From NCBI GenBank assembly GCA_012965045.1, contig DTSZ01000001.1, forward strand, positions 876,024 to 909,550: 33,527 bases of DNA. Reading direction: 5' to 3'. Below are positions 321 through 7,675 of the stretch, piece by piece. Source of the DNA: Candidatus Saccharibacteria bacterium (GTDB lineage: Bacteria > Patescibacteriota > Saccharimonadia > Saccharimonadales > DTSZ01). The position numbers were made by a program, and so were the translations under genes. How positions within the stretch are numbered: the stretch's first letter is position 1; each line of letters starts with the position of its first letter. The notes beneath the pieces are model-generated. The model ran no database searches. It was not told where the DNA came from and saw only the letters and a list, made by a program, of their open reading frames with translations.

Positions 321-1127
321 ATGCTTCCACATTGGCTCGTTCTTGGTTTTGTTTTTATTTACGGTCTTATCGCTGGTAGTTTTGCTACTGCCTGGCTATG
401 GAGAATAAAAACAAAAGGTTCGGTTCTGCATGGCCGTTCAGTTTGTCCGAACTGTAAAATCCAGCTTAAGTGGCATAACTTAGTACCTGTTTTTAGTTAT
501 TTAGTTCAAAGGGGAAAGTGTCGAGTATGTAGTAATCGCATATCAATTCGTTACCCAATAATTGAACTTACAACTGCCGTATTATTTATTTTTGTGTTCA
601 ATAAATTTTTATTCAACCAGCCGTTTTCGTTTGAGCTAGGATTAGTGGCGATTGGCTTACTGCTGCTAGCTGTAAGTAGTATAGTTATGTTTTTTTACGA
701 CTTATTTTGGATGATTTTACCCAATCAGGCCATGGTGATTTTCGGAATCGGCGCAGGTTTATTTACACTGAGTGACTCAGTTTTTATACAAAATGATGTA
801 AATTCGTTGTTTTTACGACTACTATGCATGGTGGTGGTTTTTGCGTTATTTTATGGGCTCTACCAAGTAAAAAACGGTAAGTACATTGGAGGCGGTGACG
901 TTAAATTGCTTCCGTTACTGGGGTTGGTATTAGGATTTGAAAAATTCCTGTTTATGTTGTTCGCGGCTTCGCTCGCAGGCAGTGTAGTCGGGATTACAGC
1001 ATTATTCGTTACTAAATCGTCCAAACCTTTTCCGTTTGGGCCATTTTTGTTGAGTAGTTTTTTTACGCTATTAATCTATGGCGACCAGATCATTCATGCC
1101 TACAACTCGTTTTTAATAGGCTATTAA
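321..1127 (+). CDS. pilD: Prepilin peptidase PilD (A24 aspartyl protease family)
   Basis: A 268-residue multi-pass membrane protein that cleaves, and in most relatives N-methylates, type IV prepilins at the cytoplasmic membrane face. The N-terminal zinc-binding domain is intact: CPNC at residues 42-45 and CRVC at 67-70. The two catalytic aspartates of the family are visible, one in FYDLFWMILP (D127) and one in GGGDVK (D193). Length matches a standard PilD of 250-290 residues. The ATG lies 5 bp after the pilT stop with no obvious Shine-Dalgarno, so translation is probably coupled to pilT. No pilin genes are in the window; substrates must be encoded elsewhere. Confidence 0.93.
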   Translation: MLPHWLVLGFVFIYGLIAGSFATAWLWRIKTKGSVLHGRSVCPNCKIQLKWHNLVPVFSYLVQRGKCRVCSNRISIRYPIIELTTAVLFIFVFNKFLFNQPFSFELGLVAIGLLLLAVSSIVMFFYDLFWMILPNQAMVIFGIGAGLFTLSDSVFIQNDVNSLFLRLLCMVVVFALFYGLYQVKNGKYIGGGDVKLLPLLGLVLGFEKFLFMLFAASLAGSVVGITALFVTKSSKPFPFGPFLLSSFFTLLIYGDQIIHAYNSFLIGY

Positions 1128-1143
1128 AAACCGAATAATTAAT

Positions 1144-2052
1144 TTACCGAGGTTGATAGTTTTCGTAAGCTTTTTCTAATCCCCTATCTGTTACGTGAGT
1201 GTATATTTGGGTTGTCGATATATCGCTATGGCCAAGCAGGGTCTGAACGCTTCGTATGTCAGCACCGTTTTCTAGTAGCGTAGTTGCGTAGCTATGACGC
1301 AGAGTATGTGTAGTCACATGTTTTTTAATGCCAGCTAGCGATGAGTATTTTTTTATCATTCGTTGAATGCTGCGGGGGGTCAAGCGCCTAAAGTCTCCAT
1401 CCCGTGTCACTGACGCATAATTTGAGTGCTGAAGAAATGCTGGCTCTAAATTGTCTGTTCGCTGATCGTAGTAGCGCGTTACGGCATTAACTGCTCGATC
1501 ATTTATAAACACCAGCCTATCTTTGCTGCCTTTTCCTCGAACGCTAAATTTTTTTGAATCAATGTCTAAGCTATCTTTATTTAAGCCTACGAGTTCGGAT
1601 ACTCTAAGGCCGCTTGAATATAAAACACACAATATTGCATAATCGCGTGCACCGCTAATAGTTGACTGGTCCGGCATGCTAAGAATTTTTTCAATTTCAT
1701 CAGAACTTAAAAATTCAATACTTGGTCGCTTAGTTTTTCCAAGATCAATCTTGTCGCTACTAATAACCTTGACATCGATTGAGCTTAGGTAACGCAAAAA
1801 ATTCCGCAGGGCTATCAAATGGTACTTTTGGGTGGATTTAGCAATATTGTCGCCAGTTTGGGTTTCGATTCGGTTCAACCACATCCGCCACTTTCGTATT
1901 GTTTTTTCATCTAGGTCCGCAACCGGTATGTCGCCAGCAAACTCATACAAACGATTTAGGTAATGTTGATAATTTTCAATCGTTTTTAAAGAAAGGTTGC
2001 GTTCAATCTCTGAATACTCCAGAAATTTATCGATAGCTTCAGACAAGTACAT
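1144..2052 (-). CDS. Tyrosine site-specific recombinase, XerC/XerD type
   Basis: A 302-residue protein with an N-terminal SAM-like core-binding domain (about 1-95) and a C-terminal catalytic domain. The active-site set is complete: R150 in SSGLRVSEL, K174 in RGKGSKDR, H249 and R252 in HTLRHSYAT, H275 in LLGHSD and the nucleophile Y284 in QIYTH. This is the size and form of XerC/XerD/XerA, which resolve chromosome dimers at dif, rather than a phage integrase with an arm-binding domain. It cannot be split into XerC or XerD by eye. Its -10 box (minus strand, 2059-2064) ends 6 nt before the ATG, so the mRNA is probably leaderless. The gene diverges from uppP. If the small tRNA-linked elements nearby are mobile, this enzyme is the only recombinase in the window that could act on them, which is speculation. 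Confidence 0.93.
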   Translation of the reverse strand: MYLSEAIDKFLEYSEIERNLSLKTIENYQHYLNRLYEFAGDIPVADLDEKTIRKWRMWLNRIETQTGDNIAKSTQKYHLIALRNFLRYLSSIDVKVISSDKIDLGKTKRPSIEFLSSDEIEKILSMPDQSTISGARDYAILCVLYSSGLRVSELVGLNKDSLDIDSKKFSVRGKGSKDRLVFINDRAVNAVTRYYDQRTDNLEPAFLQHSNYASVTRDGDFRRLTPRSIQRMIKKYSSLAGIKKHVTTHTLRHSYATTLLENGADIRSVQTLLGHSDISTTQIYTHVTDRGLEKAYENYQPR

Positions 2053-2058
2053 AGTGTA

Positions 2059-2111
2059 AGTATAGCTTATGTTAACCTACACTAGTCATCGTTCTGTCGC
2101 CTGAGTATAAT
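2059..2111. promoter_or_regulatory. Divergent promoters for the recombinase (minus) and uppP (plus)
   Basis: On the minus strand a TGACTA -35 (2083-2088) lies 18 bp from a TATACT -10 (2059-2064), which ends 6 nt before the recombinase ATG. On the plus strand a TATAAT (2106-2111) ends 9 nt before the uppP GTG at 2121. Neither gene has a Shine-Dalgarno. Both transcripts should begin at or within a few bases of the start codon. Confidence 0.55.
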
Positions 2112-2120
2112 AAGCTAGTA

Positions 2121-2885
2121 GTGAATATTCTTGATGCATTCATATTAGGACTCGTCCAAGGACTGGCGGAATTTATTCCAGTATCAAGTTCTGGGCACTT
2201 AATCTTATTTAATGAATTATTTAATTTGCACAGCTCGTTCCATTTTGACCTTATTCTAAATATCGGCACTTTGCTGGCTGGTTTCTTATATTTTCGTCAT
2301 GATATTTATGAAATTATAACCAAATATAAAACAAATTCGATGTATAAATTACTCATGATCGCCACAATACCCGCAGTTTTATTTGGTGCCATTTTCAAAG
2401 CTACTCTCAGTGGTGACGGGGTCCGCTCTGTAGCAGTAGTTACAACAATGTTGCTTATTATAGGTGTCCTATTTATAGCAGAATCTGCATTACAAAATGG
2501 TTCAAAAAAGATCAATAGCTTAAACTCTTCGGGTGCCCTCGGCATTGGGTTTGCCCAAGCTCTTGCGCTTATTCCAGGAACCTCCCGGTCTGGCTCAACC
2601 ATACTGGCGGGGCGCTTTTTAGGGCTTAGTCGTGAAGACGCCGCACGATTTAGTTTTTTACTTTCTCTGCCAATAATTGGTGGCGCGGTATTGTTTTCAC
2701 TGCTCACTGATCCTATTAATCTACAGTCTATCGGTACATCAAATATTGCTATTGGCATACTGACGTCATTTACAAGCTCGCTGCTTGCAATTCACTTTAT
2801 GCTGCGGTTTTTAAAAAAACACGGGCTTCGGGTGTTTGGCATCTATCGAGTTGTGCTGGCTGGCGTGTTACTATTTGTACTGTAA
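2121..2885 (+). CDS. uppP: Undecaprenyl-diphosphate phosphatase UppP (BacA family)
   Basis: A 254-residue integral membrane protein that dephosphorylates undecaprenyl diphosphate, recycling the lipid carrier for peptidoglycan and surface polymers. Both family signatures are present: GLAEFIPVSSSGHL near residues 14-27, with E17, and PGTSRSGST at 152-160 with catalytic R156. The position four residues before E17, where E. coli BacA has a second glutamate, is Q13 here. Seven or eight hydrophobic segments follow the usual topology. The start is GTG at 2121, with TATAAT ending 9 nt upstream and no Shine-Dalgarno. Ndk follows 24 bp downstream with its own ribosome-binding site, so the two may be co-transcribed. 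Confidence 0.95.
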   Translation: MNILDAFILGLVQGLAEFIPVSSSGHLILFNELFNLHSSFHFDLILNIGTLLAGFLYFRHDIYEIITKYKTNSMYKLLMIATIPAVLFGAIFKATLSGDGVRSVAVVTTMLLIIGVLFIAESALQNGSKKINSLNSSGALGIGFAQALALIPGTSRSGSTILAGRFLGLSREDAARFSFLLSLPIIGGAVLFSLLTDPINLQSIGTSNIAIGILTSFTSSLLAIHFMLRFLKKHGLRVFGIYRVVLAGVLLFVL

Positions 2886-2909
2886 ATTGAATATTGAGGA
2901 GCGACTACT

Positions 2910-3431
2910 GTGGAAAAAACATTAATATTGTTAAAACCTGACGCACTACAACGAGGTATTGTTGGTGAGATTTTATCCCGTTTTGAGCGTGCGGGCCTAA
3001 AAATTGTGGCGTGCAAAATGCTAGAACCAGATGTCGACCACTATCATGAGCATTACGAAACAATCGGCAAAGTTATTAGCCGCCGCGGGCAGCAAGTTTT
3101 TGATGACAATCTTGAATTCATGAAATCGGGTCCAGTTATCGCTGTAGTACTAGAAGGAGTAGAGGCTGTTAGTTTAGTTCGGAAAATGGTTGGCGGTACT
3201 GAGCCAAAGTCTGCAGAGCCAGGCACTATCCGTGGTGACTATGCCCACATGAGCTACGACCACGCAAACAAGAATAATGTTGGTATCCCTAACCTTATTC
3301 ATGCATCTGGAGATTCTGACGAGGCAAAACTAGAGATAGCTCTATGGTTTAGTATTGATGAGCTGCACGAGTACAACACTCTTCACGAAGCTTTCACAAA
3401 TGCGCAGCTAATGAAAAAAAAGAATAAATAG
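2910..3431 (+). CDS. ndk: Nucleoside diphosphate kinase
   Basis: A 173-residue enzyme that transfers the gamma-phosphate of ATP to nucleoside diphosphates through a phosphohistidine. The N-terminus KTLILLKPDALQRG is the standard Ndk opening and the active-site histidine is H131 in the NLIHASGDSDEA signature. It is longer than the usual 135-150 residues; the additions lie in the middle (around residues 45-75) and at the lysine-rich end. The start is GTG at 2910, supported by GAGGAG at 2896-2901, 8 nt upstream. A perfect 15-bp hairpin terminator follows 29 bp after the stop. For an organism with few biosynthetic genes this enzyme would matter for nucleotide salvage, an inference from context. 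Confidence 0.95.
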   Translation: MEKTLILLKPDALQRGIVGEILSRFERAGLKIVACKMLEPDVDHYHEHYETIGKVISRRGQQVFDDNLEFMKSGPVIAVVLEGVEAVSLVRKMVGGTEPKSAEPGTIRGDYAHMSYDHANKNNVGIPNLIHASGDSDEAKLEIALWFSIDELHEYNTLHEAFTNAQLMKKKNK

Positions 3432-3460
3432 CCACACACCAAGCGTAGTTAGAGCACTTC

Positions 3461-3496
3461 AAAAGTAAAGCCACCGTAACTGGTGGCTTTACTTTT
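3461..3496 (+). terminator. Intrinsic terminator of ndk
   Basis: A perfect 15-bp inverted repeat (3461-3475 against 3482-3496) with a 6-nt loop. The stem ends in a T run on the plus strand (ACTTTT) and in AAAA at its left foot, so it could stop transcription in both directions. It abuts the duplicated tRNA 3' end at 3495-3516. Confidence 0.85.
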
Positions 3497-3693
3497 GGTA
3501 CACCCGGTAGGATTCGGCCACTTCCAGCTGCCCCAAAATTTCATCTTTGAAAGCGTAGCTTTCAAGAGAAAGTTTCCTTGCGCCATGCTCCCAGCATGGC
3601 TCACCTACGAGTCGTAGGTTCGAACTAGAAGATCAACCAAGCAAAAAGCCGACACTGGGCCGGCATTTTGCTTGGTACACCCGGTAGGATTCG
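3495..3693 (-). mobile_element. Putative small element bounded by a duplicated tRNA-Arg 3' end
   Basis: The 22 bases at 3672-3693 (encoded CCA, acceptor 3' strand and half of the T-arm of tRNA-Arg) are repeated exactly at 3495-3516 in the same orientation, 177 bp away. The unit between them holds the tRNA terminator (3637-3675), an 8-bp-arm palindrome at 3603-3619 that repeats part of the T-arm sequence in inverted orientation (GTCGTAGGTTCGAA, 3611-3624), a hairpin with 8-bp arms at 3582-3600 and another at 3547-3565. This is the layout left when an element integrates at a tRNA 3' end and restores it, with the original end displaced to the far junction. There is no recombinase inside. A similar arrangement flanks tRNA-Asp. 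Alternatives are a local duplication or a regulatory tRNA-mimic RNA. Confidence 0.5.
3637..3675 (-). terminator. Terminator of tRNA-Arg, overlapping its CCA end
   Basis: On the minus strand CCAAGCAAAA pairs with TTTTGCTTGG, and a further GCCG/CGGC pair follows one mismatch. The first three bases of the stem are the encoded CCA of the tRNA, so terminator folding and the mature 3' end use the same nucleotides. Confidence 0.75.
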
Positions 3694-3748
3694 AACCTAC
3701 GACGCCCACCTTAGGACGGTGGCGCTCTATCCACTGAGCTACGGGTGC
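3673..3748 (-). tRNA. tRNA-Arg (anticodon CCU), CCA encoded
   Basis: A full cloverleaf on the minus strand. The acceptor GCACCCG pairs with CGGGTGT (one G-U at the end), the D-arm has GCTC/GAGC, the anticodon stem is CCACC/GGTGG with loop GTCCTAA, which gives anticodon CCU, and the T-arm is GTAGG-TTCGAAT-CCTAC. Discriminator A is followed by an encoded CCA (3673-3675). It decodes AGG. The 3' end is duplicated 177 bp downstream of the gene. Confidence 0.97.
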
Positions 3749-5362: not shown

Positions 5363-5404
5363 TTAATTTTGGTGGGCCCGACCGGATATCGGTCTTGATT
5401 TCAT
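5363..5404 (-). CDS. Possible 13-residue peptide inside the tRNA-Asp-linked element
   Basis: On the minus strand a perfect AAGGAGGT lies 5 nt before ATG at 5402-5404. The frame gives MKSRPISGRAHQN and stops at 5363-5365, so most of its codons are the duplicated tRNA 3' end. Such a strong ribosome-binding site is unusual in this window, where many genes have none. The equivalent ATGAAAT in the tRNA-Arg element (ATG at 3542-3544) has no such site. It may be chance; no function is proposed. Confidence 0.2.
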   Translation of the reverse strand: MKSRPISGRAHQN

Positions 5405-5574
5405 CTGCGACCTCCTTCCTCGCTCCTCGTTAGAAAAAAATGTAAACACTTTTTTCTAACTGCGGGGCTGCGTACGCCTGAACCGGTTTCCGGTTAAGGA
5501 TCCTGCCGGAGCACAACAAATAAAAAACACCTAGGTAAACCAGGTGTTTTTTATTTGGCGGGCCCGACCGGATT
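5369..5574 (-). mobile_element. Putative small element bounded by a duplicated tRNA-Asp 3' end
   Basis: Bases 5555-5573 (the 3' end of tRNA-Asp with CCA) recur at 5369-5387 with a single change, at the discriminator position, 186 bp away and in the same orientation. The unit contains the tRNA terminator (5522-5552), AACCGG/CCGGTT (5481-5495), the palindrome GCGTACGC (5470-5477) and an 11-bp stem (5429-5439 with 5450-5460). On the minus strand AGATGAAAT lies shortly before the duplicated end, and the same nine bases hold the same place in the tRNA-Arg unit. Size, order and orientation match that unit although most of the sequence differs. No gene of ordinary size is present. Confidence 0.5.
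5522..5552 (-). terminator. Intrinsic terminator of tRNA-Asp
   Basis: A perfect 11-bp stem (5522-5532 with 5542-5552) with a 9-nt loop and a T run on the minus strand, starting 3 nt after the encoded CCA of tRNA-Asp. Confidence 0.85.
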
Positions 5575-5632
5575 CGAACCGGCGATCTTCTCCGTGACAG
5601 GGAGACGTGATAGGCCTCTTCACTACGAGCCC
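5556..5632 (-). tRNA. tRNA-Asp (anticodon GUC), CCA encoded
   Basis: Minus-strand cloverleaf: acceptor GGGCTCG with CGGGCCC (one U-G), anticodon stem TCTCC/GGAGA with loop CTGTCAC giving GUC, T-arm GCCGG-TTCGAAT-CCGGT, discriminator G as expected for Asp, then an encoded CCA (5556-5558). Its 3' end is duplicated 186 bp further along the minus strand. Confidence 0.97.
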
Positions 5633-7598: not shown

Positions 7599-7675
7599 GG
7601 ATCCGTAGCTCAGTTGGCTAGAGCGCTTCATTGACGTTGAAGAGGCCAGAGGTTCAAGTCCTCTCGGATCCACCA
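7599..7675 (+). tRNA. tRNA-Val (anticodon GAC), CCA encoded
   Basis: Acceptor GGATCCG pairs fully with CGGATCC; anticodon stem CTTCA/TGAAG with loop TTGACGT gives GAC; T-arm AGAGG-TTCAAGT-CCTCT; discriminator A and encoded CCA (7673-7675). Unlike the Arg and Asp genes it has neither a terminator right after it nor a second copy of its 3' end. Confidence 0.97.

Follow-up and report, generated by a model that had tools for sequence, protein, structure and literature searches.

Gene-less units with a structured core beside tRNA genes of Saccharibacteria, a probable family of miniature tRNA-targeted mobile elements

tRNA genes are classic landing sites of mobile DNA, and the known users carry an integrase and usually kilobases of cargo. 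A tRNA-integrated island splits a tRNA gene and restores it; the displaced fragments are 3' parts in 3760 islands and, less often, 5' parts (159), and the crossovers fall in the anticodon loop, the T loop or the T/acceptor junction (PMC4383910). The units described here resemble such islands and prophages of the tyrosine integrase type (Islander, PMC4383910) in that a restored tRNA stands beside a displaced, mostly 3', fragment and the crossover falls in the T- or anticodon loop. They differ in being shorter than 200 bp and gene-less, in having a structured core and an antisense arm, and in that one core serves many tRNAs. Whereas the restored tRNA and the displaced fragment are present, and filled and empty orthologous sites are seen at tRNA-Leu(TAA), no integrase lies within the element.

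REP elements with their RAYT (Y1) transposases offer another likeness, being short non-coding hairpins that occur in many copies per genome and are presumably mobilised in trans. REPs, however, are intergenic palindromes beside RAYT genes, whereas the present units sit in tRNA loops and the palindromes at RAYT genes of relatives differ from them. Neither hairpins of the same type flanking a transposase gene nor a RAYT gene in the window genome was found. Integron attC sites are alike in the proposed single-strand fold, a duplex copy of the target with protruding hairpins, a likeness that is a structural analogy; unlike them, the units have no cassette gene. MITEs are also short, gene-less and dispersed, but the core ends seen here (TGAG...GTGAC) are not terminal inverted repeats and no related autonomous element was found. 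tRNA introns (archaeal bulge-helix-bulge and group I) likewise interrupt a tRNA in its anticodon, D or T region. In contrast, the units are confined to additional tRNA copies that adjoin an intact tRNA, and those of the window have no known intron fold or Rfam match. No published description of these units was found in the literature outside subscription papers.

Two units in the window

The window is the whole stretch of 33,527 nucleotides analysed here, the final 33.5 kb of a 909,550-bp single-contig genome (G000). The features of its two units are as follows, in window positions.

5556..5632, minus: intact tRNA-Asp(GTC) (ARAGORN and Rfam)
5517..5557, minus: terminator palindrome directly 3' of tRNA-Asp (CCA...TGG), a perfect 16-bp inverted repeat with a T-run
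5490..5516, minus: segment antisense to the tRNA-Asp 3' end and T-arm (sequence reading; family-wide antisense-specificity test)
5480..5486, minus: copy of the T-stem 5' strand (CCGGTTC) in the Asp unit (sequence)
5388..5479, minus: class B core within the T-loop of a partial tRNA-Asp copy (match to model R2 at 5382-5485, the window sequence itself having been used in building R2; class B relatives at many tRNAs)
5370..5387, minus: displaced tRNA-Asp 3' end, discriminator G to A (repeat search)
3673..3748, minus: intact tRNA-Arg(CCT) (tRNA gene search)
3636..3676, minus: terminator directly 3' of tRNA-Arg (inverted repeat I5)
3611..3635, minus: segment antisense to the tRNA-Arg T-arm (inverted repeat I8, 14 nt, 100% complementary)
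3514..3606, minus: class A core of the Arg unit (match to model R1 at G000:C1:879537-879629, 96 bits, the sequence being part of the seed alignment; covariation)
3496..3516, minus: displaced tRNA-Arg 3' end, exact (repeat search)
3460..3497, minus: second terminator beyond the displaced Arg end (inverted repeat I2, 16 bp, 100%), probably the native one

The last 18 nt of tRNA-Asp (plus strand TGGCGGGCCCGACCGGAT, 5556-5573) are repeated at 5370-5387 as TGGTGGGCCCGACCGGAT, at an offset of 186. The single mismatch is the discriminator, G73 to A, and 100 shuffles put the expected number of such matches at 0. Between the two ends lie a perfect 16-bp palindrome (arms 5517-5532/5542-5557) and a 15-bp hairpin (arms 5429-5443/5446-5460), and the interval folds about 6 SD better than its shuffles. 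These results bear out a preliminary description of this DNA, which had reported two Asp 3' ends 186 bp apart, a terminator beside the tRNA with hairpins in between, and a far copy altered from G to A at the discriminator. Its view that the far copy had drifted for want of selection is plausible, although the displaced end is still perfect in many units. The second 3' end claimed for tRNA-Arg(CCT), at an offset of 177, was likewise recovered, with no such match in shuffled windows. No unit accompanies the one other tRNA of the window, Val-GAC (7599-7675).

Two further claims needed amendment. The layout common to the Asp and Arg units is strongly supported, but their cores belong to different families, class B in Asp and class A in Arg. 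The 3' end is indeed displaced, but what is seen is really a T-arm split in its loop by the core, and mirror units with a 5' copy exist too. The core is placed within the T-loop of the partial copy because the T-stem 5' strand precedes it and the part from T-loop to CCA succeeds it. The T-stem copy, the antisense copy of the tRNA end and the nesting of the core in the T-loop had been absent from the preliminary description. At 177-186 bp, the window units have no room for a gene, integrase included.

Anatomy of the units and association with tRNA genes

The downstream sequence was read for 30 of the 34 tRNA genes of G000. Clear second 3' ends were seen at Lys-TTT (offset 186), Val-TAC (174), Pro-TGG (189), Arg-CCT (177), Leu-TAG (179), Phe-GAA (183), Asp-GTC (186) and Gln-CTG (284), and degenerate units, judged by eye, after Lys-CTT, Gly-GCC, Glu-CTC, Glu-TTC, Asn, Arg-TCT and one Met. 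Beyond the displaced end there is an additional terminator at Arg, Lys, Leu and Glu, and a second, partly decayed unit at Leu and Glu. The comparison of downstream regions proposed earlier, for tRNA-specific ends round interiors of similar size, has thus disclosed a family that reaches about 15 of the 30 tRNA genes read, roughly half, and extends across the order. Units this widespread in genome and order exclude the alternative of two independent local duplications.

Some arrangements stand apart. At about 1100-1500 of locus L028 (G000:C1:217581-220652), an upstream duplicate of tRNA-Gln(TTG) with cores in its D-loop and T-loop lies directly before the intact gene, and one of its cores is nested within another. 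In locus L010 (G000:C1:436194-439267), no tRNA gene stands in front of the class A unit at 2569-2661, minus strand, although the unit is complete and has a terminator, an antisense arm and a Leu-like 3' end. At L063 and L054 a second tRNA-Thr 3' end lies just 80 nt downstream of tRNA-Thr(CGT), behind a perfect hairpin, and this arrangement has no class A or B core.

The units come in two mirror forms, which have an identical circular order of parts. On the tRNA strand, the D form reads intact tRNA, terminator, antisense segment, short turn, T-stem 5' strand, core, and the part from T-loop to CCA. In the U form the upstream copy is the interrupted one, and the order is native 5' part, core, antisense segment, new leader and intact tRNA. 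The structured core is about 85-100 nt long and splits the T-loop or, less often, the anticodon loop or the D-arm. Class A cores run TGAG...GTGAC and replace about 1-3 nt of the loop; class B cores are preceded by GGTTCG, with RTCC next; a class C core type occurs at Arg-TCT and after Leu-TAG.

A terminator hairpin follows directly after the CCA in 53 of 60 D units, and the distance from tRNA end to core has a median of 76 (interquartile range 71-78) among units admitted solely if that distance was 50-110 nt. This spacing bears on the idea that the units are collapsed tRNA-integrated islands, attL and attR being what remained after independent large deletions. The regenerated tRNA and displaced fragment are the island signature (PMC4383910), and one tRNA-Arg(TCG) copy does lie far off, 3.3 kb away. 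Independent deletions, however, cannot give so tight a spacing between tRNA and core, or conserved cores. Moreover, no larger version with an integrase was seen, and the genes of the 3.3-kb interval look like ordinary host genes. We regard such a collapse as very improbable.

The antisense segment is specific to its own tRNA. In the 60 D units, admitted under the same limit of 50-110 nt, its alignment to the reverse complement of its own tRNA end scored 12.0 on average, whereas other isotypes gave a mean of 7.3 and shuffled segments one of 5.3; 92% of the segments beat 95% of their own shuffles, and the sense-orientation control gave little signal. The effect was weaker in 27 U units (7.6 own, 5.2 other isotypes, 4.8 shuffled; 63% above shuffles). 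Under a strict test, an exact 6-nt T-stem hairpin was found in just 8 of 60 units. By eye, the class B segment often reads GGAT-GA-GAACC, complementary to the flanks on either side of the core, and the linker opposite the core is not complementary to the intact loop.

The units might instead be by-products of snap-back or template-switch synthesis at tRNA quasi-palindromes, as forward-inverse-forward duplications. The succession of tRNA end, antisense copy and second copy has that very order, and tRNA arms and terminators are natural quasi-palindromes. If the hairpins had been acquired incidentally in this way, the conserved cores common to several tRNAs and genomes would be left unexplained, as would the constant core boundaries, the class B linker and the clean insertions of core into core. 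A core-less unit was seen once only, a remnant in genome G526. This origin is distinctly unlikely in our judgement.

The association of the cores with tRNA genes is close. About 45 genomes yielded 143 distinct class A cores. An intact same-strand tRNA lies no more than 420 bp from 119 of them (72 in D form, 47 in U form), and no core has solely an opposite-strand tRNA, bar the unplaced case L178, close to which there is a tRNA on the other strand. Of the other 24, several finish in a tRNA 3' end, are found at contig edges or belong to tandem units. Well-placed class A cores number 108: 86 are in the T-loop, and the others are in the anticodon loop, in the D-loop or close to position 26-29. Cores also occur inside the third hairpin of another core, for example at L111, L112, L022, L026 and L225. 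Of 30 class B loci (model R2) that were read, 27 adjoin a same-strand tRNA, and about a dozen isotypes are represented. The choice of loci to read was not random but made among the matches with the best scores.

Core structure and the choice between DNA and RNA

The fold of the class A core is conserved by compensatory change, which is seen at 26 of 35 consensus pairs among 21 cores. When R1 aligned 131 class A matches, 97.6% of the cells were paired, against 75.6% in shuffled alignments and at most 49% in slid structures, figures that lean towards the model to which the alignment was fitted. In this alignment 33 of 35 pairs had changes on both sides, and the covariation score was 0.56 against 0.16, the shuffles leaving relatedness in place. 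Model fit or relatedness is unlikely to explain the covariation because the effect is so large. The third hairpin has the form GC-N-GAA-N'-GU, in which N and N' covary. Class B cores are too divergent for one model, and R2 was built from an Asp-like subset.

Is such a core kept as RNA or as DNA? With two wobble positions left out, the class A pair cells contained G-U in 54 of 4089 cases (1.3%) and A-C in 29 (0.7%). The acceptor and T stems of 334 tRNAs from the loci read gave 6.7% G-U and 0.1% A-C. Since RNA should tolerate G-U far more than A-C, as the tRNA stems do, the rarity of G-U in the core and its slight excess over A-C favour maintenance as DNA hairpins. On this pairing evidence we favour a core kept as a DNA-hairpin substrate and not as a functional RNA, although such a reading does not explain the two conserved wobble positions of the class A core.

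The same data weigh on the possibility that the units encode a functional non-coding RNA, either a structured RNA whose antisense arm acts on the folding, processing or charging of the neighbouring tRNA, or a tRNA-like decoy. The strong covariation of the class A core, the tRNA-specific antisense arms, the location of units on the same strand as the tRNA and the conserved G-U position in the third hairpin all speak for an RNA. The G-U and A-C frequencies are nevertheless unlike those of RNA. The presence of class A is patchy (82 of 247 genomes) and empty orthologous sites exist; a terminator usually stands between tRNA and unit (53 of the 60 D units), and transcripts of the D form would be very unlike those of the U form. 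Taken with these points, a functional RNA appears unlikely. Rfam 15 covariance models, at gathering and relaxed thresholds, gave no match to the window units.

In a spread at the RNA level, reverse splicing or ligation would carry the core into tRNA loops, and reverse transcription would then lead to recombination beside the tRNA gene. Its targets, exposed tRNA loops and the loop-bearing hairpin of other cores, are reminiscent of intron positions. On the other hand, the G-U-poor pairing argues for DNA, no known intron fold was found in the window units with Rfam, and reverse transcriptases are rare (10 of 61 genomes), the local one lying beside an HsdS-like gene. We hold this route to be quite improbable.

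Mobility, candidate enzymes and proposed mechanism

Class A was found by R1 in 82 of 247 genomes of the order and class B by R2 in 35 of 247; with 15-17 candidates scored per genome, the core counts per genome are lower bounds. In a phylum-wide sample every class A match fell within the same order. A degenerate class A pattern, which detects part of the family only, was found in 27 stretches among 84,980 species genomes, in records titled Saccharibacteria or Saccharimonadia or in MAGs of unnamed bacteria. Two class A patterns had no match in viral contigs.

The nearest neighbour of a core lies in the same genome in 21% of cases, against 3.6% when permuted, and 17 of 23 such same-genome neighbours are in another isotype. 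In genome G088, the cores at tRNA-Arg and tRNA-Gly are 98.8% identical and their flanks are unrelated outside the tRNA parts. Near-identical cores in different tRNAs of one genome, with unrelated flanks, indicate that the cores move. The nearest relatives of the window genome among those compared belong to other families of the order. Filled and empty sites were compared at tRNA-Leu(TAA) within one genus, whose members have a similar region downstream of this tRNA. In G518 the empty site reads tRNA, terminator, gene start. In G112, G529 and G530 the filled site reads tRNA, terminator, unit, displaced end, second terminator, gene start. G526 has a remnant without a core. At tRNA-Gly(GCC), the promoter of G515 is followed by a single tRNA. 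G531 has a closely similar promoter in front of the interrupted copy, whereas its intact tRNA is preceded by another leader, in which a promoter-like TTGAAA...TATAAT occurs.

Searches for recombinases, RAYT and reverse transcriptases identified no mobilising enzyme. Extra tyrosine integrases were rejected, there being one XerC/D-like recombinase per genome regardless of units, with no association. The sole XerC/D-like tyrosine recombinase detected in G000 lies in the window at 1144-2052, minus strand, about 1.4 kb from the tRNA-Arg unit. RAYT-type Y1 genes were found in 14 of 31 core-bearing genomes versus 3 of 30 others (p=0.004, a statistic that ignores relatedness). In spite of this association a RAYT transposase was rejected as the mobiliser, since RAYT loci have other palindromes and the gene is absent from G000, where PF01797 had no match at E 0.001. 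The RAYT-like Y1 transposase genes of relatives (L151-L170) encode about 205-250 aa, and many are flanked by palindromes of the ACAAGGAC...GTCCTTGT type. Reverse transcriptase was set aside as well, being rare (the 10 of 61 genomes above) and locally adjoining an HsdS-like gene. The local reverse transcriptase-like ORF, at 759-3544, minus strand, of L319 (G000:C1:226600-230200), directly follows this HsdS-like (restriction specificity) ORF and is possibly a defence reverse transcriptase. In L318 (G000:C1:561400-565700) the intact tRNA-Arg(TCG) gene has a second copy 3.3 kb downstream, which is degenerate and has nested cores and a similar terminator. The 3.3-kb interval was rejected as an autonomous element, since it encloses two ordinary-looking genes.

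We consider it probable that the units are a family of miniature mobile elements of Saccharibacteria that have no genes and target tRNA. Such an element would integrate within the hairpin loop of a tRNA and, like a genomic island, would make good what it displaces, both the tRNA part and the terminator or promoter, leaving the host with a functional tRNA. In single-stranded form, the antisense segment would pair with both flanks of the core, and the core would bulge from the resulting duplex copy of its target. An enzyme acting in trans may take this folded DNA as its substrate, in analogy to integron attC sites and REP/IS200 hairpins. Classical att-site exchange fails to account for a matching arm in each unit, because copies at different tRNAs share the core alone. 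A bolder proposal is a new kind of mobile DNA, in which a gene-less hairpin core of about 85 nt enters tRNA hairpin loops generally and each insertion builds a target-matched arm, including the new terminator or promoter, the tRNA staying functional; this we offer tentatively, as possible but not probable. The units may be placed with tRNA-targeted non-autonomous mobile DNA, a known kind, and may become a kind of their own once the enzyme is known.

With the two covariance models, R1 and R2, the family is searchable. If confirmed, the units would rank with the smallest known integrative elements and would offer a putative recombinase a natural set of structured sites, besides being a source of mis-annotated tRNA fragments. 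For the much-reduced genomes of Saccharibacteria, they mean up to at least 17 gene-less copies each, with the promoters and terminators of tRNA genes changed.
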